Assembly: GCF_041320275.1 (NCBI RefSeq) | Contig: NZ_CP162023.1 | Coordinates: forward strand, 4,030,001-4,094,000 | Direction of reading: 5' to 3' | Length of the DNA stretch: 64,000 nt | Source of the DNA: Mumia sp. Pv4-285 | GTDB lineage: Bacteria; Actinomycetota; Actinomycetes; Propionibacteriales; Nocardioidaceae | In this document: piece by piece, positions 17,351-43,217 of the stretch | Layout of the letters: the number at the start of each line of letters is the position of its first letter | Numbering within the stretch: position 1 is the first letter of the stretch | The notes under the pieces: generated by a model | The model's database searches: none | Told to the model about the DNA's origin: nothing | Seen by the model: the letters and a program-made list of their open reading frames with translations, nothing else | Translations under genes and position numbers: made by a program

Positions 17351-19888
<2,538 letters not shown>

Positions 19889-20030
19889 GCAACTCCCCTT
19901 GATCCGAGACCCTTCTGCGGGTCGGGTCTCTGTCCATCCCATGCTAGTCACGACCACCAACGCCGGTGGAGCGCCCCACATCGGTTGTTACGCCTTATTT
20001 CAAGGGATCCGGGGCCTGCGTGCTTCCGGT

Positions 20031-20079: not shown

Positions 20080-20162
20080 AGGCTTCCCGCTGGTAGCGTG
20101 ATCGCCGTCCCGCGAGGAGGCTGAGATCCTCTCGACGTCGGTCACACCAGGTGGAGTTGCAG

Positions 20163-21128
20163 ATGAGCATCCGAAGCACTGTTCGTTCCCGTCTCGAGTC
20201 GGTCGTCGGTGAGGAGCGCGTGCGCGCAGCAGCGCGTACCGAGCGCGCCGTACGTACGCGCCTCGCCTCCGCGATCGCCCCGGCTGCGCCGCCGCCGAAG
20301 AAGAAGGCCGCGAAGAAGCCGGCGAAGCCCAAGCCGGTCGCCCGCACCACGTTCCAGCCCTCGGATCCGTTCACCCCGCACCCCGAGCCCACGATGTCGC
20401 GCCACGACCTGCTCGCTGGTCTGCACGAGCGGCTGCAGCCCCGCACCTACCTCGAGGTCGGCGTGCGCAACGGCGAGAGCCTCGCGCTGTCGTCGACCCG
20501 CTCGATCGGCGTCGACCCGGCCTACAGCGTGGACCGCGAGATCGAGGCGGACGTCCAGCTCGTCCGCGCGACCAGCGACGACTTCTTCGCTCGCGAGGAC
20601 CCGCTCGCGCACTTCGCAGGCGTCCCGGTCGATCTGGCGTTCATCGACGGCATGCACCTCTCGGAGTTCGCTCTGCGCGACTTCCTCAACACCGAACCCC
20701 ATCTGGCCCGCACCGGCGTCGTCGTCTTCGACGACATGCTGCCCCGCAACTCGCTCGAGGCCGCACGCGTCCGGCGTACGGCGCAGTGGGCCGGCGACGT
20801 CTACAAGGTGGCTGAGGTGCTGCGCCGGCGACGGCCCGACCTCGTGGTGCTGCTCGTCAACACCTCTCCGACCGGCACCGTCGTCGTGGCCGGGGTCGAC
20901 CCCGCGACGGCACTGAAGGACGCCGTGTACGAGGCCGAGCTCGCCTACTGCCTGGCGCCCGACCCCCAGGACGTGCCCTCCGAGTATCTCGACCGGTCGA
21001 CCGCGGTCAACGCGAGAGCCCTCCTCGAGCTGAGCGTCTGGGACACGCTCGTGAAGCGCCGCGAGTCCGACAACGAGCCCCTCGACGACGTCTGGGACCA
21101 GCTGCGCTCACTGCCCGTCGGAGGCTGA
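20163..21128 (+). CDS. Class I SAM-dependent methyltransferase
   Basis: A 321-residue protein with a basic Ala/Lys/Pro-rich N-terminus (about 15-65, PPPKKKAAKKPAKPKPVA) and a Rossmann methyltransferase domain of the Methyltransf_24 type. The SAM site is RTYLEVGVRNGESLAL, followed by SIGVDPAYSV, and the post-core DLAFIDGMHLSEFALRDFL and GVVVFDDMLPR. ATG at 20163 has GGAG six nt upstream. First gene of the glycan island, divergent from clpC and convergent (21-bp overlap) with a GT2 gene. O-methylation of a sugar or polymer end is plausible but not proven. Confidence 0.8.
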   Translation: MSIRSTVRSRLESVVGEERVRAAARTERAVRTRLASAIAPAAPPPKKKAAKKPAKPKPVARTTFQPSDPFTPHPEPTMSRHDLLAGLHERLQPRTYLEVGVRNGESLALSSTRSIGVDPAYSVDREIEADVQLVRATSDDFFAREDPLAHFAGVPVDLAFIDGMHLSEFALRDFLNTEPHLARTGVVVFDDMLPRNSLEAARVRRTAQWAGDVYKVAEVLRRRRPDLVVLLVNTSPTGTVVVAGVDPATALKDAVYEAELAYCLAPDPQDVPSEYLDRSTAVNARALLELSVWDTLVKRRESDNEPLDDVWDQLRSLPVGG

Positions 21129-22709
21129 CGCCCGCCCCGGACGGCGGACCCGGAGCATCGCGGAGGAGGCCGACGAGCGCGTGAGGCGTGCGCGTACGAC
21201 GTCGGCGCCGTCGCGCTCCTCCACCCGCTGGGCGAGCACCTCGGCGTGGACGTCGGGATCGAGCGGCACCGCCTGCACCGCTGGCTCGCCCAAGAAGCTG
21301 CTGCGCACCTGGAGCCGCCAGGTCCCGGGCTCGAGCGCGGGCCCGACGAACCCGACGAAGGGCTGCACCCGCGCCTCGATCCGGATCGACTGCAGCCAGC
21401 CGTCGCCGGCGCCAGGCTGCACGGCGACCGAGCGGCACTCCACCGGCCACTCGATCCCGGACTGGACGCTCCGGACGGAGAGCGACCCCCAGGGGGCGTC
21501 GTGCTGCCCCAGCGCGGCACTGATCACGCCGCTGGGCGCCGCGATCACCGCTGTCGCCCGGTCCGGCTCCTGCGCGACCGTGATCCGGTCGTCGTCGCTG
21601 CGGACCTGGACCTGGAGCCGGACGTCCAGCGCCGTACCGGACCAGCCGACCTCCTCGACGTCGACGTGGCGCTCGAGGCTGCTCAGCGCCTGGCACACGG
21701 CGAGGAACGCAGGCTCGTCCTCAGCCCGCAGCGTCTGGAAGCGCAGCCGTCTCAGGACCGAGAGGTCGCGGTCGACCTCCTCGCCGAAGGTACGGCGGAC
21801 GAACGCGACGGTGGACGCGAAGTAGGTGTGCCGGGTGGCCGGCGGTCGGCGCTCGAACCGGTTGATGAACGTACGGCTGAAGCACTGCTGCGCGCCCTCG
21901 CGCCGCAGCTCCCTCGAGACGTGAGGATCGGCGCCGCGCTCGTCGGCGACGTCGAGGGCGGCGGTGTAGTAGCCCCAGTACCAGTCAGGATCGACGGCCT
22001 TGCTCGAGTTGTTGGTGCCGTCGCGTCGACGGACCCAGCGGTAGCACGGCGACGACGCCAGCACCGACACCACCGGCGAGCACCCGAACACCTGACCCAT
22101 GAAGTGGTGGTCCTCCAGACGCACCCGACCCTCCAAGAACCGGATCCCGTGCTCCACCAGGAACGACCGCCGAAACAGCTTGTGCACCGTCCGCGACTGC
22201 ATCACCCCGTCACCGACCAGATCAGCCCGCTCCACATCACCGCCGGCCAACCCCCAGTACGGAGTCCCCCCACCGACCCGCACCACCTTGCCCGCCACCA
22301 CGTCCGAACCGTTGCGATCAGCCATCGCCACCATCCGCTCCAACGCCTCAGGAAACAGCTCGTCGTCCTGATCGGAGAAGAACACGTACTCCCCCCGCGC
22401 CCGCTCCAACCCCACGTTGCGCGGACGACCCGGCCACCCCGAACCCGGGATCGACACCACCACCATGTTCGAACGCTCCGCCGCCCGCGCCCGCAACCAC
22501 CCCAACGTCTCCCCATCACGAGACCCGTCGTCGACGAACACCAGCTCCACCGCACGCCGCCCCAACGACTGAGCATCCAACGACGCCAACAACGGCACGA
22601 TGTTCGACCCAGGCTCGAACACCGGCACCACCACCGACACCCGCGGCCCACCCCACGGCAACCCACCCCGAACCCGCTCCCACCAACCAGCCCCGCCCAC
22701 GTCAACCAC
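21108..22709 (-). CDS. GT2 family glycosyltransferase (copy with shared 5' cassette)
   Basis: A 533-residue protein. The N-terminal GT-A domain (about 20-225) has RVSVVVPVFEPGSNIVPLL, LVFVDDGSRDGETLGWL and the DXD-like VFFSDQDDELFPEA. The C-terminal 300 residues contain a helical part and then a beta-rich module (about 340-510; SGIEWPVECRSVAVQP, PGTWRLQVRSSFLG) shared in outline with the neighbouring GT2. Residues from the start through SSPCYRW are encoded by a 688-bp block identical to the start of the next gene upstream. GTG at 22709 was chosen; it overlaps that gene's stop by 8 bp, so translation is probably coupled. Sugar donor and acceptor unknown. Confidence 0.85.
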   Translation of the reverse strand: MVDVGGAGWWERVRGGLPWGGPRVSVVVPVFEPGSNIVPLLASLDAQSLGRRAVELVFVDDGSRDGETLGWLRARAAERSNMVVVSIPGSGWPGRPRNVGLERARGEYVFFSDQDDELFPEALERMVAMADRNGSDVVAGKVVRVGGGTPYWGLAGGDVERADLVGDGVMQSRTVHKLFRRSFLVEHGIRFLEGRVRLEDHHFMGQVFGCSPVVSVLASSPCYRWVRRRDGTNNSSKAVDPDWYWGYYTAALDVADERGADPHVSRELRREGAQQCFSRTFINRFERRPPATRHTYFASTVAFVRRTFGEEVDRDLSVLRRLRFQTLRAEDEPAFLAVCQALSSLERHVDVEEVGWSGTALDVRLQVQVRSDDDRITVAQEPDRATAVIAAPSGVISAALGQHDAPWGSLSVRSVQSGIEWPVECRSVAVQPGAGDGWLQSIRIEARVQPFVGFVGPALEPGTWRLQVRSSFLGEPAVQAVPLDPDVHAEVLAQRVEERDGADVVRARLTRSSASSAMLRVRRPGRASASDGQ

Positions 22710-22722
22710 CCACCACGTCGAC
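22035..22722. repeat. 688-bp direct repeat, copy 1 (GT2 catalytic cassette)
   Basis: By eye this block is identical to 23662-24349 (offset 1627 bp). It spans the 5' coding part of the GT2 gene on the reverse strand, including the start codon and the last codons of the upstream GT2. Homology drops sharply at both ends. Confidence 0.93.
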
Positions 22723-24336
22723 GCTCGGCTCCGGTCGGGCCTCAGCACGCCTGCCCGATCGGCCGTCGCGCAGCACGACGACCAGCGCTCCCCTGGTCCC
22801 GCGGCGCACCCGGGCACGCCGCAGAGCGCCCTTCGACCGCACGCGGGCGCGGCCCGCCAGGACGGCGTGCCCGGGCGGAACGGGGACGGGCCGCACCGCA
22901 CCGCGGCCGATCAGCCGCGATCGCACGTGGAGCGTCCACTGCCCGGCGTCGAGCCGTTGCCCGAACGAGCCCTCCTGGGGATCGAGCGTGGCCTCGACGG
23001 TCGCCGTCTGCAGGACGTCGCCTGAACGCGGTGTCTCGACCACGCACCGTACGGTCGACACCGGCCACTCGATCCCGGAGTCACGCTCACGGATCGACAG
23101 CTCCGCCCAGCCCGCATCGGGAGAGCCGACCGCCAGCGCAGGCTCCGAGTACGCCGGCACGACGATCTCGGAGACGCCGTCCACGCCGGTCCCCGGCACC
23201 GTCCGGACCAGAGCGGGATCGTTCGTACGCAGGCGAGCCAGGACGACCAGCCGCAGGAGGCCGTCGTCCCACGAGGCGTCGATCAGCTCGGCATCGACGA
23301 CCGTCGCGCGCGCCGCGCGCCGGATCGCGAAGAGGTCGGCGGCATCACCGCGACGCAGAGCGCCAACCTCCGCACGGCGCCACACCGGGAGTCCGGCGTC
23401 CACCGACTCGGGGACGGACCGTCGCACGAAGCCTGACACGGCCGCGAAGACCTCGGCCGCGTCATCGGCCGGGATACGGTCCATGTTCGCGACGACGGCT
23501 CGCCCCATCGCCTGGGCTGCGCCGACCGTCCGGAGCGCGGTGACCACGGCAGGGTCGGCGCCGGGGCGGTCCACCGCGTCGACCGCGCGGCCGTAGTGCT
23601 CCCAGTACGCCGCCTGGGTGACCGTGGCGGCCGAGCTGTTGGTGCCGTCGCGCCTGTCGATCCAGCGGTAGCACGGCGACGACGCCAGCACCGACACCAC
23701 CGGCGAGCACCCGAACACCTGACCCATGAAGTGGTGGTCCTCCAGACGCACCCGACCCTCCAAGAACCGGATCCCGTGCTCCACCAGGAACGACCGCCGA
23801 AACAGCTTGTGCACCGTCCGCGACTGCATCACCCCGTCACCGACCAGATCAGCCCGCTCCACATCACCGCCGGCCAACCCCCAGTACGGAGTCCCCCCAC
23901 CGACCCGCACCACCTTGCCCGCCACCACGTCCGAACCGTTGCGATCAGCCATCGCCACCATCCGCTCCAACGCCTCAGGAAACAGCTCGTCGTCCTGATC
24001 GGAGAAGAACACGTACTCCCCCCGCGCCCGCTCCAACCCCACGTTGCGCGGACGACCCGGCCACCCCGAACCCGGGATCGACACCACCACCATGTTCGAA
24101 CGCTCCGCCGCCCGCGCCCGCAACCACCCCAACGTCTCCCCATCACGAGACCCGTCGTCGACGAACACCAGCTCCACCGCACGCCGCCCCAACGACTGAG
24201 CATCCAACGACGCCAACAACGGCACGATGTTCGACCCAGGCTCGAACACCGGCACCACCACCGACACCCGCGGCCCACCCCACGGCAACCCACCCCGAAC
24301 CCGCTCCCACCAACCAGCCCCGCCCACGTCAACCAC
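22702..24336 (-). CDS. GT2 family glycosyltransferase (second copy)
   Basis: A 544-residue paralogue of the gene at 21108-22709. The first ~225 residues, which include the whole GT-A catalytic domain (VSVVVPVFEPG, VFVDDGSRDGE, FFSDQDDELF), are encoded by the identical 688-bp cassette. After CYRW the proteins diverge to clearly related but different C-termini (here RRDGTNSSAATVTQAAYW, then VDAELIDASWDDGLLRLVV and SGIEWPVSTVRCVVE). Start is uncertain: GTG at 24336, with an in-frame TTG four or five codons upstream as an alternative. The stop lies inside copy 1 of the repeat. Same catalytic head with different tails suggests same donor but different acceptors or partners (inference). Confidence 0.85.
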   Translation of the reverse strand: MVDVGGAGWWERVRGGLPWGGPRVSVVVPVFEPGSNIVPLLASLDAQSLGRRAVELVFVDDGSRDGETLGWLRARAAERSNMVVVSIPGSGWPGRPRNVGLERARGEYVFFSDQDDELFPEALERMVAMADRNGSDVVAGKVVRVGGGTPYWGLAGGDVERADLVGDGVMQSRTVHKLFRRSFLVEHGIRFLEGRVRLEDHHFMGQVFGCSPVVSVLASSPCYRWIDRRDGTNSSAATVTQAAYWEHYGRAVDAVDRPGADPAVVTALRTVGAAQAMGRAVVANMDRIPADDAAEVFAAVSGFVRRSVPESVDAGLPVWRRAEVGALRRGDAADLFAIRRAARATVVDAELIDASWDDGLLRLVVLARLRTNDPALVRTVPGTGVDGVSEIVVPAYSEPALAVGSPDAGWAELSIRERDSGIEWPVSTVRCVVETPRSGDVLQTATVEATLDPQEGSFGQRLDAGQWTLHVRSRLIGRGAVRPVPVPPGHAVLAGRARVRSKGALRRARVRRGTRGALVVVLRDGRSGRRAEARPEPSVDVVGG

Positions 24337-24349
24337 CCACCACGTCGAC
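23662..24349. repeat. 688-bp direct repeat, copy 2 (GT2 catalytic cassette)
   Basis: Partner of 22035-22722. The cassette uses codons ending in G or T (GTG, TTG, GGG, GGT) far more than the flanking C-ending genes, seen on the + strand as C/A-rich text such as caccaccacc. This marks it as compositionally foreign. Confidence 0.93.
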
Positions 24350-24424: not shown

Positions 24425-26824
24425 GTGAGCTGGATCCGGGAGCGCTCTCGCGTCCTGCTGCGCGGCCCGAAGTCCCCCGGCGTGGCCAGCCGCCCACCCG
24501 CCCCGACCGGCTGGACAGCCGTGGTTCGATCGGCACGGTGGAGCGCCTGCGGGCTCACGATCGGAGGCTGGGTCTACGTCGACGGGATCGACACGACCTC
24601 TCAGGCGACGGTGCAGGTCTCCTTGGTCGACGTCGCCTCGGGTCGGACGCTCTCCGCGGACGTTCGTCGTCGTCACGACCACGAGGTCAACCACGTCGCA
24701 GGTGACCCCGAGCACGACTATGCCGACGGCGCCTTCGGGGCCGAGCTCCCCATGCCGCCCGAAGACTCTGGCCACGAGTGGGACGTCCAGGTCAGCCTCG
24801 CGGTGGGCGGACAGCTGTGGACCGGCCCGCTGACCGACCTCTTCCGCCGCGGTTCACCCGGCTCGATGGCCCGCCGGTTCCTCGACGGCGGCGCTCAGAT
24901 CAATCCCACCTGGGTCCCTCAGCGTGGCCTCGTCCTGCAGGTCGTACGGCGCCAGGTCACCGCCCGGTCCTCCAGCTCCAGCACCACGGCGTGGTGCAGC
25001 GAGACCACGAGCACGGGCAGGCGTCCCGTCGCCGCCGACCTCCAGGGCCCGGACGGCTCCGTCGAAGGCGAGGTCCTCGACGTGCGCAGGGACGCCGGCG
25101 TGTGGCACGCCCGGCTGCGCTTCCCGCTGCCGGCAGCAGGCAGCGGCGACTGGTCCCCTCATGTCAGGCTCTCGGGCGGCAGCCGACGTCCGGTCCACTG
25201 GTCCGGTCCCGACGTTGCCGCCTCGACGGCGGACGTGAACATCGCGGTGACGCCCACCGGGATGCTTCGTCTCACACATCCGGCCGACGAGGTCGTCGTC
25301 GACGACATCGACGTCGACACGGGCGCGGATCCCGCCGTGATCCTGCGTGGACGGGCCAGCCCGCCCGGAGGCCGGTTCACCCTTCGCCTGGACGGTCGCC
25401 GCGCCGCCAGCGTCGTGGAGGTGGCCGTGGCCGACGGACGCTTCGATGTCCGCCTTCCGCTCTCGACCACGTCCGACCTCTGGTCGAGCGGCCCGCTCCC
25501 GCTCCCGATCGGGACGTACCGCGCCGAGGCACGCGACCCCGACGACCGGTCTCTCCACGTCCGCCTGACCCAGGACGTGCTGGAGCATGCCTGTGGACGT
25601 TGGTCCTTCGGTCCGGCGGTGATGGCACGCCCCGAGAGAGGCTCCAACAACCGCCTCGAGGTTCGGCTGGCTCCACCGCGTGCCCCGGACGAGTGGAGCG
25701 AGCTGGGGCAGCGGCGCGAGGACGACGCCTACCGCCGGAGGGCGTACGCGCAGGAGGATCTCGTGTTCTTCGAGAGCTTCCTCGGCAAGCGAGCAGCGTG
25801 CAACCCGCTCGCGATCCGGCACGAGGTCGCTCGTCGGAGTCCGGGCCTCCGGCGGGTCTGGGGAGTGTTCGAGGGCTCCGTGCCGGTGCCCGACGGAGAC
25901 GGCAAGGTCGTCATCGGCACCCGGGCCTGGCGCGACGCCCGCGGTTCCGCTCGCTACGTCGTGACCAACGACTGGCTCCGCCGCTTCGAGCACCGCCCGT
26001 TCCAGACCTTCGTGCAGACGTGGCACGGCACGCCGTTGAAGAAGCTCGCCCTCGACCGTCGGCCACGGGGACTCGATCCCGCGTACCAAGCCCTCGTCCG
26101 TGAGGAGACGTCGCACTGGGACGTCCTTGTGAGCCAGAGCCCGTTCATGACGGAGGCCCTGCGTGGGGCGTACGGGTACGAAGGGCCCGTGCTGGAGGTC
26201 GGCTACCCCCGCAACGACCTGCTGGCCCATCCCGACGCGCCCGCACGCCGCCGCATCGTGCGCGAACGCCTCGGTCTTGCCGAGGAGTCCACCGTCGTGC
26301 TCTACGCGCCCACCTGGCGCGACGAGAAGGACCGCTCGACGCCGCCGCCGCCCGACCCGATGACGCTGGCAGCACGGCTCGGGCCGTCGACGACGCTCCT
26401 GGTGCGGGGCCACGCCGAGAACATCCGCCACGATCGACGCATCGAGGGCCCGCACCTCCTCGACGTGACGCTCTACCCCGACGTCTCCGAGCTGTTCCTC
26501 GTCGCCGACGCCCTCGTGACCGACTACTCGTCCGTCATGTTCGACTTCGCCGTGACGGGGAAGCCCATGGTGTTCTACGCACCCGACATCGAGGACTACC
26601 GCGACGTCACCCGCGGCCTGTACCTCGCCCTCGAAGACATCGCTCCCGGGCCGGTGCTGCACTCCAGCGAGGCAGTCGCCGACGCGCTCGCCGACCTGAC
26701 GTCGCTGCGTGCGGAGCACCACGACGCGTACGTCGCCTGGCAGTCACGCTTCGTCCCCCTCGACGACGGCTCGGCCACGGCCCGGGCCGTCGACGCCGTC
26801 TGGCCGGACCACGTCGCCTCGTGA
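24425..26824 (+). CDS. CDP-glycerol glycerophosphotransferase family protein (TagB/TagF-like)
   Basis: A 799-residue protein. The N-terminal half (about 35-400) consists of beta-rich modules (CGLTIGGWVYVDGID and later repeats ending PLPIGTYRAEARDPD). The C-terminal domain (about 430-795) is a Glyphos_transf GT-B enzyme with intact motifs: QTWHGTPLKKLALD with the catalytic-type His534, GYPRNDLL, LYAPTWRDE, LLVRGHAEN, and VTDYSSVMFDFAVTGKP near 700. This family transfers polyol phosphate from CDP-polyols to teichoic-acid primers or polymers at the inner membrane face. GTG at 24425, preceded by an AGGAGGGG run; TAGACT at 24377-24382 is a possible -10. Overlaps the next gene as GTGA. Confidence 0.87.
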   Translation: MSWIRERSRVLLRGPKSPGVASRPPAPTGWTAVVRSARWSACGLTIGGWVYVDGIDTTSQATVQVSLVDVASGRTLSADVRRRHDHEVNHVAGDPEHDYADGAFGAELPMPPEDSGHEWDVQVSLAVGGQLWTGPLTDLFRRGSPGSMARRFLDGGAQINPTWVPQRGLVLQVVRRQVTARSSSSSTTAWCSETTSTGRRPVAADLQGPDGSVEGEVLDVRRDAGVWHARLRFPLPAAGSGDWSPHVRLSGGSRRPVHWSGPDVAASTADVNIAVTPTGMLRLTHPADEVVVDDIDVDTGADPAVILRGRASPPGGRFTLRLDGRRAASVVEVAVADGRFDVRLPLSTTSDLWSSGPLPLPIGTYRAEARDPDDRSLHVRLTQDVLEHACGRWSFGPAVMARPERGSNNRLEVRLAPPRAPDEWSELGQRREDDAYRRRAYAQEDLVFFESFLGKRAACNPLAIRHEVARRSPGLRRVWGVFEGSVPVPDGDGKVVIGTRAWRDARGSARYVVTNDWLRRFEHRPFQTFVQTWHGTPLKKLALDRRPRGLDPAYQALVREETSHWDVLVSQSPFMTEALRGAYGYEGPVLEVGYPRNDLLAHPDAPARRRIVRERLGLAEESTVVLYAPTWRDEKDRSTPPPPDPMTLAARLGPSTTLLVRGHAENIRHDRRIEGPHLLDVTLYPDVSELFLVADALVTDYSSVMFDFAVTGKPMVFYAPDIEDYRDVTRGLYLALEDIAPGPVLHSSEAVADALADLTSLRAEHHDAYVAWQSRFVPLDDGSATARAVDAVWPDHVAS

Positions 26825-29800
26825 GCGCCTCCTTACTCAGCCGCCCTCGCCGCGGCGCCGACCGTCCTCCCGAGAGCACGCTGAGGCTGCGCCTGGTCGG
26901 CGACCGCCTGCGTGTGGACGTCACCCTCGGCGACGGGCTGCGAGCCGAACGGCTCCTGCTCCGCTACCGCGACACCGGCCGCGAGTCCACGCTCGCCCCC
27001 GTCGCTCCGGAGGCGGGCGAGACCGGCACCTGCTTCGACGTGGACGTCCCCGCCGCAGTCCGAGCGGACCCGTCGTGCGAGTGGATCGACCTGTGGCTCG
27101 CGGTCGCCGGTGATGAGGCCCCTCGTCGCGCCGGACGGTTCGCCTCGACCGAACGCGGCGACGCCGTCACGCCCACCGACGTCGACGGGTTGACCGCGAC
27201 CGTCCACATGACGCACAAGGGCAACGTCAGCATCCGGGTCCAGGCCGAGCGCTCGCGCGAGGTGGCTCTGTGGACGCGCAGCCTCACCTTGCGCCACGGA
27301 CGGATCGCCTTCGCCGCGGACGTCGTCACGCACAACGTGCGCGCGGTGTCGGCTGTCCTGACCGTGACCTCCCGGGAGAGCGGCGAGTCCACCGACCTCC
27401 CGGTCGGCCTCCGGCTGCTGGCCGAGGACACACGTCGACTCCACGGTCTCATCCGCTACCGCGTCGATGCCGACTTCGACGTGCGGATCCTCGCCCGCAC
27501 CGGCGAGCACGACAGCGACATCTACGACCTCGCCCTCGTCCTCACGCTCGACGGCTTCACCGAACCTCTCGAACGCGGGATCCGTATCCCGCCGTACCGC
27601 GTGCGACGTCGCCTGCGTGCCACCGACGTCTCCGACGGCGAGGCGGGCCATCTCGTCACGCCGTACTTCAGCTTCAAGGCCCAGCGGCTCTGCCTGCGCG
27701 TCGAGACGTACGCCGGTGCGGACCTCGACTTCATGCGCCGGCTGCTGCGGTTCGCGTGGGCGTTCGAGGTCGTGCGACCGTTCACCCGCATCTGGCTGAT
27801 CGGCGAGCTCCCGTACAAGGCGCAGGACACCGGCTACCACTTCTTCCGCTGGGTGCGCCTCAACCACCCCCGTCGTCGCGCGTACTACGTCATCGAGGAG
27901 GACTCTCCCGAGCGCGCGCAGGTCGAGCCGTACGGCAACGTCGTCACGCACCGGTCTCGCCGGCACATCCTCTACTCGCTCGTCGCCTCGCGTCTGGTCG
28001 GCTCGCACCACGCCGAGTACCTCCTCGCCTCGCGCAGCCCTCGCTTCGTACGCTGGTCGCGCGGCGTCCGTGTGTTCCTGCAGCACGGGGTGATGGGCAC
28101 GAAGAACATGACCGGCAACTACGGCCGGCGTGCCTCGACGGACTTCCGGACGGACCTGTTCCTGGTCAGCTCCGAGCGCGAGCGCGAGATGGTGGTCGAC
28201 GACTTCGAGTTCTTCCCCGGCCAGGTCCGTGTCACCGGTCTGCCGCGCTTCGACACGTTGCTCGCCGACGACGTGGACGTCGAGCGTGCCCTGCTGATCA
28301 TCCCGACCTGGCGCGACTGGCTGAGAGCGCGCGACTTCGGCGAGAGCGAGTTCTTCGAGCAGTGGGACGGGCTGCTGACGTCGGCGAGGTTCCAGGAGAT
28401 GATCCGCCGCCACGGGCTGACCGTCCGGTTCATCCTCCACCCGAACATGCGCGACTACGCCGAGCGCTTCCACGCTTCGGGCGTCGTCGTCCTGCAGCAG
28501 GGCGACGCGCCGGTCCAGGACCTGCTCAAACGCAGCGCCGTCATGATCACCGACTACTCCAGCGTGGGGTTCGACTTCAGCTTCCTCCACCGTCCAGTGC
28601 TCTACTTCCAGTTCGACCGCGCGCGGTTCCTCGGCGCACGCGGATCACACCTCGACCTCGACTCGCACCTCCCGGGCGAGATCGCCTTCTCGCGCGACGA
28701 GGTGCTCGACCGGCTGGACGACGTCCTCGACGCGGGGATGACGATCTCCGACCGCAACCGCGCGCGTGCCGACGCATTCCTCGATCACCGCGACCGCGAC
28801 AACAACGCGCGGATCTACGAGGAGGTGCGCCGCGCCTGGTCCCCGCTCACGTCGTGGCGACGCCTGCGCAGTGCGGCGCCGTCCCGTGCCCTCTTCAACA
28901 GGTTCCGCAAGAGCCGCGCCTACTTCCCGGCGATGCGCGTGCTGTACCGCCTGGCGACCCTGCTGCCGCGTCGCGACCTCGTCGTCTTCGAGAGCGCCAA
29001 CGGCAAGCAGTACGGCGACAGCCCCCGCTACCTGTACGAGAAGCTCCTCGAGCGCGGCACCGACAGCACGCTGGTGTGGGTCAACGACTCCACCGTCCGG
29101 CTCCCCGACCCGGGCACGCGCAAGGTGCGACGGTTGACGCCGCGCTACTTCTGGCTGCTGGGGCGCGCGAGCCACTGGATCAACAACCAGAACTTCCCGC
29201 ACTACCTGCGCCCGGCTCGGGGCACCCGCTACGTGCAGACGTGGCACGGCACGCCGCTGAAGAAGATGCAGCACGACCTCGAGCACGTCCACGGCCGCAG
29301 CGACGGCTACCTCGAGCGGGTCACGAAGATGACCGGCTACTGGGACGACCTCGTCTCCCCGAGCCCGTACGCCACCGCGGCCTTCCGCACTGCGTTCCGC
29401 TACTCGGGTCGTGTGATCGAGGCCGGCTACCCCCGCAACGACGTCCTGCACCACCCGGACCGCGAGGCGAGGGCGGACCTGGTCCGCCGACGGCTCGGGA
29501 TCCCCGCCGGTCGACGGGTCGTCCTCTACGCACCGACGTTCCGGGACGACCGTACGAGCGGCGGTGGCTTCGCGCCGCAGGCCGAGCTCGACCTGGCGCG
29601 GCTGCACGCCCGGTTCGGCGACTCCGTCGTCGTCCTTCTGCGGATGCACTCGGTCGTCCGCGGACGACCGCCCGTGCCCGAGGAGCTGCGGCACTTCGCG
29701 ATGGACGTCTCTCGGTACCCGGACACCCAAGAGCTCCTGCTGCTCGCCGACGTCCTGGTGACGGACTACTCCTCGGTCATGTTCGACTTCGCGACGATGG

Positions 29801-30057
29801 ACCGGCCGATGGTGTTCTTCACGTACGACCTGGACCACTACCGCGACGACCTTCGCGGGTTCTACCTCCCGTTCGAGGAGGTAGCGCCGGGGCCGCTCGT
29901 CCGCACGAGCGACGAGGTCGCCGACGCGCTGTCGGAGGCGCTGGCCGGCAGCGACGGCTACGCGAGAGCACGCGAGGACTTCCGGGCTCGGTTCGCGCCG
30001 CTCGACGACGGCTCGGCCTCCGAGCGAGTTCTGGACGCCGTCTTCGGACCGCCGTGA
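26821..30057 (+). CDS. Double-domain CDP-glycerol glycerophosphotransferase family protein
   Basis: A 1078-residue protein with an N-terminal beta-rich region (about 15-260) and two complete Glyphos_transf domains of different subtypes. Domain 1 (about 300-690) has VFLQHGVMGTK with His422, TGLPRFDTLL, IIPTWRDW, ILHPNMRDY and ITDYSSVGFDFSFL. Domain 2 (about 700-1070) has QTWHGTPLKKM with His809, GYPRNDVL, YAPTFRDD, VLLRMHS and VTDYSSVMFDFA near 981. All expected catalytic residues are present in both, so the enzyme may alternate two polyol-phosphate or glycosyl-phosphate transfers to make a repeating unit (inference). Translationally coupled to the gene upstream by GTGA overlap. Confidence 0.9.
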   Translation: MSASLLSRPRRGADRPPESTLRLRLVGDRLRVDVTLGDGLRAERLLLRYRDTGRESTLAPVAPEAGETGTCFDVDVPAAVRADPSCEWIDLWLAVAGDEAPRRAGRFASTERGDAVTPTDVDGLTATVHMTHKGNVSIRVQAERSREVALWTRSLTLRHGRIAFAADVVTHNVRAVSAVLTVTSRESGESTDLPVGLRLLAEDTRRLHGLIRYRVDADFDVRILARTGEHDSDIYDLALVLTLDGFTEPLERGIRIPPYRVRRRLRATDVSDGEAGHLVTPYFSFKAQRLCLRVETYAGADLDFMRRLLRFAWAFEVVRPFTRIWLIGELPYKAQDTGYHFFRWVRLNHPRRRAYYVIEEDSPERAQVEPYGNVVTHRSRRHILYSLVASRLVGSHHAEYLLASRSPRFVRWSRGVRVFLQHGVMGTKNMTGNYGRRASTDFRTDLFLVSSEREREMVVDDFEFFPGQVRVTGLPRFDTLLADDVDVERALLIIPTWRDWLRARDFGESEFFEQWDGLLTSARFQEMIRRHGLTVRFILHPNMRDYAERFHASGVVVLQQGDAPVQDLLKRSAVMITDYSSVGFDFSFLHRPVLYFQFDRARFLGARGSHLDLDSHLPGEIAFSRDEVLDRLDDVLDAGMTISDRNRARADAFLDHRDRDNNARIYEEVRRAWSPLTSWRRLRSAAPSRALFNRFRKSRAYFPAMRVLYRLATLLPRRDLVVFESANGKQYGDSPRYLYEKLLERGTDSTLVWVNDSTVRLPDPGTRKVRRLTPRYFWLLGRASHWINNQNFPHYLRPARGTRYVQTWHGTPLKKMQHDLEHVHGRSDGYLERVTKMTGYWDDLVSPSPYATAAFRTAFRYSGRVIEAGYPRNDVLHHPDREARADLVRRRLGIPAGRRVVLYAPTFRDDRTSGGGFAPQAELDLARLHARFGDSVVVLLRMHSVVRGRPPVPEELRHFAMDVSRYPDTQELLLLADVLVTDYSSVMFDFATMDRPMVFFTYDLDHYRDDLRGFYLPFEEVAPGPLVRTSDEVADALSEALAGSDGYARAREDFRARFAPLDDGSASERVLDAVFGPP

Positions 30058-35131: not shown

Positions 35132-37702
35132 TCACTCGTCGGCGGCGGGCGCCCGGTACTTCCGGGACGACTCCTCGATCGCGGCCACGACGCGCTCGCG
35201 GCAACGGCCGTCACGCTGCGGGAACGTGGCTGCGGCGCGGTCGAGGAAGACTTGGTCCGGCGTGCGACCGCGGTCGACGATGTCGACCGCGGCGGCCACC
35301 GCGGCGTCCGCGGTCTCCGTGACTGGGCCGAACCCGTCACGGCCGTAGTCGAAGTAGCCGGCGCGCCCCACGTGCCCTCCTTGGGTCATGCGCTCCCGGT
35401 CGAACTGGAAGTACACGACCGGCCGATCAAGATAGGCGGCGTTGAAGGCCACCGACGAGTAGTCGGTGATCAGGACAGCCGACCGAGCGAAGAGCTCGCG
35501 GACGTCGCGGCCTTCGAAGCTCATGACCTCGACGTGCGCCGGTAGATCGAGCCTCCCCGCGAGCACGTCCATGTTGGGGTGCGGCAGGAAAGCAAGCTTG
35601 AGTCCGTGGCGGGCGGCGGCGTCGGCGAGCTCCTTCGAGCGCAGCACGGCCAACCATTCCTGCACGTAGTCGGTCTCCTCGATACCGTCCACGAGCTCCC
35701 TGCGCTGAGAGCCGCTCTTCAGCGGAGGCACCAGCCACACCCTCCACGTCGGGCAGACCAGCACCAGGTCTCGCTGCGCAGGCCCGAACCGCTGACCCTG
35801 CTCGAACAGCAGGTCGAAGCGCGGCAAGCCCGTCAGCTTCGTCTCGCGCCCGGTGTAGATGTACGGGGTGTCGTCCCCGACGATCGAGGCGTGCTCCTGC
35901 TGCGTGCTCGTGACGAACACGTCGAGCGGTCGGTGGTTGAGCCAGCTGGACAGGTCGTCCTTGATCACACCGTGCTGCAGGAAGGTGAAGCGGTAGGCCG
36001 GCGTCGCGAGCGACGTGATCGCCGGCGGGCGGCAGACGGCGATGTCGGCGTGCGACGACACCAGGTGTCGACAGTTGAGCATGAGGAGCTTCCACAGGAC
36101 GGACCCATGGGCAACCACCCTGCGGCCGTACGCTGCGCGGAGGCGCTTCCAGTCCGGGGTCCCTCGCTGGACGACGAAGAAGGCGTCGATGTCCGTACGG
36201 GTGCTCCGCAGGTGCTGGAAGAGATGCTCGGCACTGTCGTCAGCGTTGTGGATGCGGTCCATCAGCACCCATGACTTTCGCAACCGCCGACTCACAGGTC
36301 GGCTCCGAGCCACACGGAGGAGAAGACGATCTCGCCACGCCACGCCGCTCGTCGTGCCACCAACCTTGCGACGTGGTTGCAGAGCCTGTCGAAGACGCGC
36401 CGGTGAGAGCGATCTCGCCGGGACTGGCGGCTGTGAGAACCTGAGCTCGCGCACGCGACCGTCGACGACCAGTCGCAACGCACGCGCTGCCGGCACCCAG
36501 TGGATGCGCTCGCGCAGCAACGGACGACCGTGGTGGTAGAGCGCACGGACCTTGGTGTACGCCGGCGTGGTGACCTCGCCGCCCGACAGGACCTGGTCGT
36601 CGGGCGTCTCTCCGGTGAACCGGTAGACGATGCGTACAAGCCCCTGCCGGGAGTCGAGACGATCTGCCAGGGCGTACGAGGAGACCCAGGGTTCGTCGCG
36701 GTAGGCATGCAGGAGGATGTCGCGGGCGGCGCCCCGCAGTGGGACGACGGAGAACGACTCCACAACCTCCGGATCGAGGTATCGGACGATCCGCCTCATC
36801 AGGGCGTGAAACTCGTCGGCCTCCGACGCCGGGGCGACGACCTTCGACCCCGAGTCCTCCGCCGCGAAGTAGTAGCTCAGCTCGTACAAGACGAAGTTCT
36901 GCAGCCACTCGGGCACGTGGCCCCACTCGCGCTCCGCCGTCTCGAGGGCGTCCAGGTAGCCGTGACGGAGGACAGCGGTGAAGCGTCCAGGGTGTCGCTG
37001 CGAGCTCTGGAGGGTTGAGCTCTGATCACTGCGCTTGCGGTACTGGTAGCGCGCCGTCGCCAGGAATGCCACCTTGGGATCGGGCACAAGCAGCAGGTAG
37101 CGACTGCTGAAGTGGCCATCCTCGAAGTTGGGGCGAATCCGGTGATCGAAGCGCAATCCGCTCTCACGGAGACGGTCGACACGGTAGAAGGCCGCCGGCG
37201 CGCTTCCGTGGAAGTGGTCGGGAAACGCGGCCAGACGACGAGCGCGATCGCCGGCCGCGAAATGGCGACGGAGCGGGTGCTTGTCGGCGATGGCTCCGGT
37301 CGAGTCGTTCAAGAGGACGCGGTTGGTGGCCACCATGTCGATGTCGTCATCGCCTTCGAGGAACTCGACGACGCTGCGGACATAACCTGGATCGAGGATG
37401 TCATCGGGGTCCGGGAACGTCACCCACTCTCCGAGGGCGACCTCGAGACCTGCGTTGCGAGCGGCACCCTGTCCGGCATTCGGCTGGGTCAGGACCCGAA
37501 CGGCCCCGGGTCGCCTGGCCTCCCACGCGCGCAGCTCCGCGAGCGTGTCGTCGCTGGAGCCGTCATCGACCATGATGACCTCGATGAGCCCCGGATTCTC
37601 CGCCATCTGCAGCTCGATCGACGCGATGAAGTCGGGGAGGTAGCGCGCCACGTCGTACGCAGCAGACACGATCGAGAATCGTGGTCGCGGTGATTCGTCC
37701 AC
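35132..37702 (-). CDS. GT2 glycosyltransferase fused to CDP-glycerol glycerophosphotransferase domain
   Basis: An 856-residue fusion. The N-terminal GT2 domain (about 8-230) has FSIVSAAYDVARYLPDFIAS, VDDGSSDDTLAEL and VTFPDPDDILDPGYV. A middle region (about 230-480) links to a Glyphos_transf domain (about 530-830) with FLQHGVIKDDLSSWL (His near 575), LTGLPRFDLLF, VCPTWRVWLVP, FLPHPNMDV and ITDYSSVAFNAAYL near 745, all intact. This layout is known from teichoic-acid and capsule polymerases that alternate a sugar and a polyol phosphate. Start GTG 37702 (AAGG ten nt upstream); GTG 37732 is an alternative. Confidence 0.88.
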   Translation of the reverse strand: MDESPRPRFSIVSAAYDVARYLPDFIASIELQMAENPGLIEVIMVDDGSSDDTLAELRAWEARRPGAVRVLTQPNAGQGAARNAGLEVALGEWVTFPDPDDILDPGYVRSVVEFLEGDDDIDMVATNRVLLNDSTGAIADKHPLRRHFAAGDRARRLAAFPDHFHGSAPAAFYRVDRLRESGLRFDHRIRPNFEDGHFSSRYLLLVPDPKVAFLATARYQYRKRSDQSSTLQSSQRHPGRFTAVLRHGYLDALETAEREWGHVPEWLQNFVLYELSYYFAAEDSGSKVVAPASEADEFHALMRRIVRYLDPEVVESFSVVPLRGAARDILLHAYRDEPWVSSYALADRLDSRQGLVRIVYRFTGETPDDQVLSGGEVTTPAYTKVRALYHHGRPLLRERIHWVPAARALRLVVDGRVRELRFSQPPVPARSLSPARLRQALQPRRKVGGTTSGVAWRDRLLLRVARSRPVSRRLRKSWVLMDRIHNADDSAEHLFQHLRSTRTDIDAFFVVQRGTPDWKRLRAAYGRRVVAHGSVLWKLLMLNCRHLVSSHADIAVCRPPAITSLATPAYRFTFLQHGVIKDDLSSWLNHRPLDVFVTSTQQEHASIVGDDTPYIYTGRETKLTGLPRFDLLFEQGQRFGPAQRDLVLVCPTWRVWLVPPLKSGSQRRELVDGIEETDYVQEWLAVLRSKELADAAARHGLKLAFLPHPNMDVLAGRLDLPAHVEVMSFEGRDVRELFARSAVLITDYSSVAFNAAYLDRPVVYFQFDRERMTQGGHVGRAGYFDYGRDGFGPVTETADAAVAAAVDIVDRGRTPDQVFLDRAAATFPQRDGRCRERVVAAIEESSRKYRAPAADE

Positions 37703-37840
37703 TCGGACAAGACCTTCCGTTGGATTTCGCACAGAGGAGACCGGTGCCAGGCCGGACGAAGGACGATCGTACCTACCTGTCGGATCCGCCCTGGCATCGG
37801 CACACGAGAGCACGCGAGCCGAGGACCGCCCGGCACCAGG

Positions 37841-41638: not shown

Positions 41639-43144
41639 TCACACCTCGCGTGCTGCGGGGAAAAGAATTGCCTCCCGAATTCCGACTCCCATCAGGAGCA
41701 TGACCAGGCGGTCGACCCCCAGCCCCATCCCGCCGGCCGGGGGCATGCCGAACTCCAGCGCGCGCAGGAAGTCCTCGTCGACCTCCATCGCCTCCGGGTC
41801 GCCGGCAGCGGCCAGCTCGGCCTGCTCGACCAGCATGGCGCGCTGGAGCACCGGGTCGTTGAGCTCCGAGTAGGCGGGAGCCAGCTCGACGCCGTTGATG
41901 ATGAGGTCGAACGCCTCTGCCAACCCCGGCTTGCTGCGGTGCGGCTTGGCGAGCGGGCGCACCGCCTGCGGATAGTCGGCGACGAAGGTCGGCTGGATCA
42001 GCGTGTGCTCGACGAGCTTCTCGAACAGCTCGAGGACAATCTCCCCGGCGCCCCAGCCGTCGCGCAGCGCGACGTCGTGCTCGGCCGCGTGCTTGCGCAG
42101 CGTGTCCGCGTCGGTCTCGACGTCGACGGCGGCTCCGACCGCCTCGCCGACGAGCTCGTGGATGCTCGCCCAGCGCCAGTCGGCCTCGAGGTCGATCTCG
42201 GTGCCGTCGCGTCCGGGAACGACCGTACGGTCCAGCGCACGCGCCGCGTTGCGGACGAGGTCGCGGAGGAGGTCCGCCATCGTGTGGTAGTCGCCGTACG
42301 CCTGGTAGGCCTCGAGCATGGCGAACTCGACGTTGTGGGTGTTGTCGACGCCCTCGTTGCGAAAGGTCTTGGCGATCTCGTAGACCCGGTCGACGCCACC
42401 GACGAGCGCACGCTTGAGGTGCAGCTCGAGCGCGATGCGCAGCAGCATCTCCTGGTCGAACGCGTTCATGTGCGTCTTGAACGGACGGGCGGCGGCCCCG
42501 CCGTTGGTGAACTGCAGCACCGGCGTCTCCACCTCGACGAAGTCGCGACCGTCGAGGGTACGCCGCAGGGACTGCAGGATCGTCGCCTTCGCCCGGACGA
42601 TCTCGCGGGCCTCCGGGCGTACGACGAGGTCGACGTAGCGCATCGTCGCCCGCAGGTCGCTGGACAGCGGGTTGTGCTCGTTCGGGAGCGGACGGAGCGT
42701 CTTCGCGGCGACCTGCCACCGGCGGACGGCGATCGAGAGCTCGCCGCGTCGGCTCGTGATGATCTCGCCCTCCACGGCGAGGTGGTCGCCGAGGTCGACG
42801 AGCGCCTTGAAGTCGGCGAGCGACTCCTCCCCCACCTCCGCGAGGGAGAGCATCGCCTGGATCTCGCTACCGTTGCCCTCGCGCAGCCGGGCGAAGCAGA
42901 GCTTGCCGGTGTTGCGGAGGAAGATCACCCGGCCGGCGGTGGCGACCTCGAGCCCCGTGTGAGCGTCGGGACCGAGGACGTCGGCGTCGTGAGCGCCGAC
43001 GATCTCGGTGATCGTGTGGGTGTACGGGACCGTCAGCGGGTACGGGGCGACGCCGGCGTCGATCATGCGCTGACGCTTCTCGAGCCGGACGCGCATCTGC
43101 TCCGGGAGGTCGTCAGTGTGCTGGGTCGGGACGGCGTCGGTCAT
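41639..43144 (-). CDS. lysS: Lysyl-tRNA synthetase, class II
   Basis: A 501-residue aminoacyl-tRNA synthetase. The N-terminal OB-fold anticodon-binding domain (about 60-160) contains VATAGRVIFLRNTGKLCF; the class II core has FVEVETPVLQ, motif 2 in IAKTFRNEGVDNTHNVEF, and motif 3 GMGLGVDRLVMLLMG near the C-terminus. The ATG at 43144 is used; a GTG seven codons upstream is possible. lysS upstream of lsr2 and downstream of coaX is conserved actinobacterial order. Confidence 0.96.
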   Translation of the reverse strand: MTDAVPTQHTDDLPEQMRVRLEKRQRMIDAGVAPYPLTVPYTHTITEIVGAHDADVLGPDAHTGLEVATAGRVIFLRNTGKLCFARLREGNGSEIQAMLSLAEVGEESLADFKALVDLGDHLAVEGEIITSRRGELSIAVRRWQVAAKTLRPLPNEHNPLSSDLRATMRYVDLVVRPEAREIVRAKATILQSLRRTLDGRDFVEVETPVLQFTNGGAAARPFKTHMNAFDQEMLLRIALELHLKRALVGGVDRVYEIAKTFRNEGVDNTHNVEFAMLEAYQAYGDYHTMADLLRDLVRNAARALDRTVVPGRDGTEIDLEADWRWASIHELVGEAVGAAVDVETDADTLRKHAAEHDVALRDGWGAGEIVLELFEKLVEHTLIQPTFVADYPQAVRPLAKPHRSKPGLAEAFDLIINGVELAPAYSELNDPVLQRAMLVEQAELAAAGDPEAMEVDEDFLRALEFGMPPAGGMGLGVDRLVMLLMGVGIREAILFPAAREV

Positions 43145-43217
43145 GCGCACCAGGGTAGTGGGCACCCTCGTGGCGGCCGTCCGCCGGAGGTGTCACCGCC
43201 TCGTGCGGTGACACCGC

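Follow-up and report, generated by a model that had tools for sequence, protein, structure and literature searches.

The described systems closest to the locus analysed here are Listeria monocytogenes RmlT, a wall teichoic acid (WTA) rhamnosyltransferase (PDB 8bz4-8bz8, 9gzj, 9gzk; PMC4441387), and Staphylococcus aureus TarS and TarP (PDB 5tz8, 6h1j; PMC5156392); the C-terminal domains of TarS trimerise and have been proposed to aid polymer binding (PMC5156392). Our locus lies in a 64,000-nucleotide stretch of Mumia sp. Pv4-285 (contig NZ_CP162023.1, positions 4,030,001 to 4,094,000; hereafter the window, with positions counted from its first letter) and consists of two overlapping minus-strand genes, P2 upstream and P1 downstream, whose products look like RmlT/TarS-type GT2 WTA glycosyltransferases by their Pfam domains and best PDB match. 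RmlT shares only about 22% identity with them and, in the accessible part of its source, is a single gene, whereas P1 and P2 form a tandem pair with a common head. We consider it highly probable that this is an old pair, its substrate probably a wall polymer, in which the GT-A heads are homogenised by recurrent gene conversion and the tails are left apart.

Gene conversion and RmlT/TarS-type enzymes are each already known, as are arrangements that combine one common part with several variable ones: in UGT1-type eukaryotic glycosyltransferase clusters, variable first exons in a tandem array are joined to common exons by splicing. P1 and P2 resemble these clusters, as far as the consulted part of the source describes them (PMC1885805), but here two full genes would be homogenised by DNA copying. 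A second likeness is to the concerted evolution of prokaryotic paralogs (PMC6053082), in which paralogs are closer to each other than to orthologs, synonymous sites included, and recurrent conversion is invoked; in the accessible part of that source the units are whole genes and a word search found no glycosyltransferase, whereas in P1 and P2 homogenisation is confined to one domain. A literature search, mostly without subscription papers, gave no matching case by title or abstract among the matches listed, and PMC6959607 is, in the part available, not about head-limited conversion. Within the literature searched, two aspects of the locus appear new. One is that a single protein domain of a tandem pair is homogenised in two species, in both of which the block has its 3' edge at exactly the same base; the other is a synonymous bias that is specific to one strand and limited to the homogenised block.

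One catalytic head on two tails

The pair comprises the following features, with confidence of the AlphaFold models given as the mean predicted local distance difference test (pLDDT).

21108..22709, minus strand: P1, RmlT/TarS-like GT2 glycosyltransferase of 533 residues, alternative start GTG at 22700 (Pfam GT2 and TarS_linker; pLDDT 87.7; Foldseek match to RmlT)
22702..24336, minus strand: P2, RmlT/TarS-like GT2 glycosyltransferase of 544 residues, alternative start GTG at 24327 (Pfam GT2 and TarS_linker; pLDDT 86.0; Foldseek match to RmlT)
22035..22722, minus strand: identical block, P1 copy, with start region, GT-A head and P2 stop codon (688/688 match; 53 species-specific and 0 paralog-specific sites)
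23662..24349, minus strand: identical block, P2 copy, with start region and GT-A head (688/688 match; four-way alignment)
21108..22034, minus strand: P1 tail, modelled as helical linker and C-terminal beta-sandwich, ortholog of the Mumia xiangluensis P1 tail (alignment and model)
22702..23661, minus strand: P2 tail, modelled as helical linker and C-terminal beta-sandwich, ortholog of the M. xiangluensis P2 tail (alignment and model)

A first-pass annotation of the window had described the two blocks as base-for-base identical, and exact alignment bore this out: all 688 bases are equal, and no base can be added to the exact match at either end. A single contig of 4,649,352 bases carries both copies (window genome completeness, 99.1), and a search for further copies, which the annotation had recommended, found no third in this genome, the next-best match being 33 bases at 88%. 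The two heads consist of 225 identical codons each, while the tails are, as had been claimed, only distantly similar, with 109 of 305 aligned residues identical (36%); RRDGTN, a short motif common to both tails, stands just past the head/tail junction. The block copy that opens P1 also carries the final codons and stop of P2 (22702-22704). GTG at 22700 and 24327, rather than the codons at 22709 and 24336, are the starts kept in M. xiangluensis.

Both proteins score above the cut-offs for PF00535, the GT2 catalytic domain, and PF22181 (TarS_linker; 38.7 bits in each, cut-off 27). Their models share an architecture of a 17-residue low-confidence N-terminus, a GT-A fold, a helical linker and a C-terminal beta-sandwich. 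The last GT-A strand (residues 214-226) ends at the block edge in both, which agrees with the earlier proposal that the block spans the start codon and the whole GT-A domain. Foldseek placed Listeria RmlT chains as the best PDB match of both models, near full length (TMq to 8bz6_B, 0.77 for P2 and 0.80 for P1), followed by TarS and TarP, which have the GT2 head and TarS_linker in common with P1 and P2 but match the full-length fold more weakly. Both proteins have a DxD-type motif. Four Asp residues (D113, D115, D116 and D200) are invariant among 20 aligned sequences, and the catalytic Asp of RmlT is kept, D200 aligning with the one altered in the RmlT D198A entry. By this fold layout and the conserved Asp residues, the identical block corresponds to the catalytic head, and what diverges is the linker and C-terminal domain.

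P1 and P2 are predicted to decorate a polyol-phosphate wall polymer, which is probable in the context of their TagF-like neighbours. By analogy with RmlT/TarS-like architecture, it is plausible that they use one donor sugar and differ in acceptor, or in the partner or assembly role of each tail. Since nature has here joined the same catalytic head to two old tails, as in a domain-swap experiment, any functional difference should sit in the linker and C-terminal domain.

Probable concerted evolution in two Mumia species

At high identity, two of the six Mumia genomes have the pair, namely the window genome and that of M. xiangluensis NEAU-KD1. The latter has the same tandem, with tails orthologous to the window tails and two heads identical over 224 codons (0 differences); the 5' edge shows 3 differences. 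Heads are thus identical within each genome (paralog synonymous divergence, dS, of 0 in both) but divergent between the species, with 53 base differences in 222 codons (dS 0.216). In a four-way alignment, 53 sites of the block separate species and 0 separate paralogs, and a 3-base indel within the block likewise splits by species; the first 450 tail bases, in contrast, hold 177 paralog-specific sites, 2 species-specific sites and 77 sites of other patterns. The 3' edge of the block falls at the same base in both species, as expected if conversion tracts cannot enter diverged tails. Since head dS is near that of the orthologous tails (0.244 and 0.288) and clpC (0.266), the heads were not exchanged recently between the species. 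Other neighbours have higher values (methyltransferase, 0.53; TagF2, 0.42; TagF1, 0.88).

Domain-limited concerted evolution best explains these alignments, and recurrent conversion is preferred over one recent copy because M. xiangluensis pairs orthologous tails with its own identical heads. That gene conversion keeps the heads identical had been one suggestion of the first-pass annotation, which the second species now strengthens; the tails, orthologous in both species yet 36% identical between paralogs, also fit its description of them as old and divergent. The two direct repeats would convert each other again and again, presumably through homologous recombination that depends on RecA, so that the GT-A heads stay identical, while the conversion tracts would halt at the block ends because the flanking DNA is too diverged to pair, so that the linkers and C-terminal domains remain different. 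A crossover between direct repeats would cost 1627 bp, one tail included, yet both species retain both tails, which suggests that both are needed. Assuming even accrual of changes, no more than about 6% of the time since the split has passed since the last homogenisation in each lineage (with 3/53 as the upper 95% Poisson bound). Window P2 has the edge found in both P1 genes (the three edge differences), which weakly suggests that P1 was the donor and P2 the recipient in the window lineage.

Trees of 29 sequences fit an old tandem duplication: the P1 and P2 tails are sisters (support 0.93) beside Xylanimicrobium and Luteimicrobium relatives, and the Mumia heads group with the same relatives. 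Domain shuffling, the earlier interpretation, fits less well than an old duplication with homogenised heads, since the tails group together. A foreign origin of the head was also considered; the head tree, with heads beside the same relatives as the tails, gives no hint of one.

Several other explanations were weighed against recurrent conversion. A single recent head transplant in the window species, with no ongoing process, has a small chance of being correct: zero differences in the window genome would suit any recent copying, but M. xiangluensis too has two identical heads, both of which carry the 53 differences from the window heads, and this requires at least one event per lineage or continuous homogenisation. 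Separate tandem duplications in each species, although they too predict identical copies within one genome, are hardly credible, because tails that are orthologous between species and only 36% identical between paralogs make the pair older than the species split. Duplication or collapse of the block by assemblers is very improbable. The M. xiangluensis draft does break at the repeat, and 75 kb of its sequence is present redundantly in two contigs, C1 and C8; however, the window genome is a single contig in which each block enters a different tail, two independent assemblies give the same tandem, and the draft kept the three edge differences apart. The first-pass annotation had further raised recombination-driven switching of surface glycan type, which would be in keeping with direct repeats inside a surface-glycan locus, with a crossover that would place tail 1 behind the head and promoter of P2, and with the merely distant matches to these genes in the clpC-lysS stretch of other Mumia species. 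This proposal fared poorly and retains a slender chance, as the window genome has only two copies and no silent ones, the repeats are direct rather than inverted, both species keep both tails, and no recombinase family was found among the 15 window open reading frames (ORFs) scanned with Pfam.

Some observations weigh against recurrent conversion in an RmlT/TarS-type pair. The pair is seen in two species only, one of them a draft, in which P1 is split over two contigs overlapping by 127 identical bases, so that assembler collapse of slightly different M. xiangluensis heads is conceivable, though unlikely. Head dS is at the low end relative to the more diverged neighbours (0.42 to 0.88). As to the protein family, Pfam TarS_C1 was not detected by sequence in P1 or P2, a difference from TarS and TarP, although the models contain the C-terminal beta-sandwich and match RmlT over 520-535 columns, and no NCBIfam model reached its cut-off.

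Two features of the M. xiangluensis draft may be recorded here. A 21-base gap is the only difference between contigs C1 and C8 (with locus L012 on C1 and loci L013 and L025-L027 on C8) over their common 75 kb. On C1, moreover, 8.7 kb is repeated in tandem, with the junction about 106 bases inside the head and 5 bases shared; this is either an artefact of the draft or a real duplication.

Strand-specific base composition of the block

On the coding strand, G makes up 47% and C 21% of the block, whose four-fold sites hold 105 G, 26 T, 11 C and 0 A. G or T thus occupies 131 of 142 four-fold sites, against 34,016 of 73,194 (46%) in 240 sampled genes (Fisher p 3e-31). This background of 240 genes and 1291 windows was obtained with a simple caller from the window together with 20 stretches of 20 kb each, in all about one-tenth of the genome, with P1 and P2 excluded. 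Block G+T lies 14.5 standard deviations (s.d.) above 5000 synonymous recodings made with the sampled codon usage, while the highest of the 1291 other 225-codon windows reaches 5.1 s.d. and the tails are near expectation (z of -0.1 and 2.5); in each of the four genes the G-minus-C profile drops where the block ends. M. xiangluensis heads share the bias (G or T at 126/139 four-fold sites). Among 1565 ORFs (1.95 Mb from 106 sources, some ORFs not being genes), the six top four-fold G+T values (0.918-0.927) all come from these heads, two from the window and four from the M. xiangluensis P2 head, which is present in redundant copies; the next is 0.794. Other homolog heads, of which 24 were taken in by one run and 25 by another, range from 0.30 to 0.67 among the 25, the top value belonging to L032, among the nearest relatives.

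Within the block, Leu is TTG in 11 of 18 cases, and the enriched words include GGTG, with 31 occurrences (8.2 expected), and GTGGTG, with 7 (1.2 expected). At 13 bases, the longest G/T run is unexceptional (recodings average 9.5, with a maximum of 14). There are two G-quadruplex motifs against 0.22 expected, and 1.5% of recodings reach two.

Two candidate causes of the bias were rejected. The E. coli Chi sequence, which may not be the one used in this lineage, occurs 0 times in the head against 0.57 expected. GC-biased conversion would not account for a head GC of 0.68, below the 0.73 and 0.74 of the tails; in its ordinary form it would by itself give no preference for G over C on one strand.

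Filaments of the E. coli RecA protein are most stable on TGG repeats, through slower monomer loss rather than through nucleation at Chi, in the part of the source available (PMC3763553), so the bias could be tied to conversion. By this analogy, we propose that the G+T bias may be causally linked to recurrent RecA-mediated exchange. A bolder and doubtful version is that the block is a self-reinforcing conversion island, in which RecA exchange drove the coding strand to G+T-rich, TGG-type DNA and codon choice is a fossil of that drive; if so, strand-skewed stretches could reveal hidden conversion islands in genomes. The composition signal would allow a tie between conversion and bacterial base composition to be tested, one distinct from ordinary GC-biased conversion. 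Alternatively, and with somewhat better than even probability, the bias is independent of conversion: the head may have an old quirk of composition or be foreign, or selection may act on the structure of its transcript or on G-quadruplex/R-loop formation. The two G-quadruplex motifs, the mildly raised head of the L032 relative and the unexceptional G/T run are consistent with such an origin, whereas the end of the bias at the block edge beside ordinary tails, the placement of the heads among the relatives of the tails, and the rise of T along with G in the absence of A at four-fold sites are less readily explained by it.

Related pairs and the surrounding locus

Identical heads are unusual for pairs of this kind, since nine other pairs have head identities of 40-67%. 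Five of these same-strand related pairs, some with genes several kb apart, have heads at 40-63% and tails at 29-38% amino-acid identity, and four further ones have heads at 49-67% and tails at 33-55%; heads are generally better kept than tails. A scan of the species collection gave at least 595 pattern matches and at least 234 relatives, and among 82 loci (the best 80 of 234 plus two family loci) near-identical heads were found only at L030 and L031, both M. xiangluensis. Four genomes, including the window genome and M. xiangluensis, matched at 1e-60 in a family search of 294 genomes sampled from a larger group. Within the order, TarS_linker was found in 48 of the 391 genomes, and in 15 TarS_linker regions (same-strand pairs, opposite-strand pairs and contig-end genes) the best internal repeat is 74% in bases. 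Matches in plasmid and phage collections (83 and 32 records) were all below 60% identity. The alignments, trees and composition comparisons took in 17 of 25 loci: L039, L044, L048, L051, L054 and L056 were left out because they had been read in the wrong frame, and L043 and L058 as near copies of L040.

The neighbours of the pair in the window are as follows.

17351-19981: clpC
20151-21128: methyltransferase
24425..26824, plus strand: TagF/TarF-like polyol-phosphate transferase (Pfam Glyphos_transf, E 1.7e-86)
26821..30057, plus strand: TagF/TarF-like protein with TarS_C1 domain (Glyphos_transf, E 4e-150; TarS_C1, E 8.3e-14)
41639-43165: lysS

The stretch from clpC to lysS/panK (17351-43988) looks like a variable surface-glycan locus, because in about 20 kb beside clpC in four other Mumia genomes (G001-G004) the window glycan genes are mostly matched only distantly. 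The exception is the methyltransferase, with a 79% match in G002, and lysS was located in three of the four stretches. No Rfam match at the gathering score and no tRNA were found in the window.

Two of the surrounding genes combine domains within one ORF. The first, 26821-30057 (1078 residues), has Glyphos_transf in two stretches together with TarS_C1, and its C-terminal part has 70-71% of bases in common with the C-terminal part of 24425-26824. The second, 35132-37813 (893 residues), encodes Glyphos_transf downstream of a GT2 domain.

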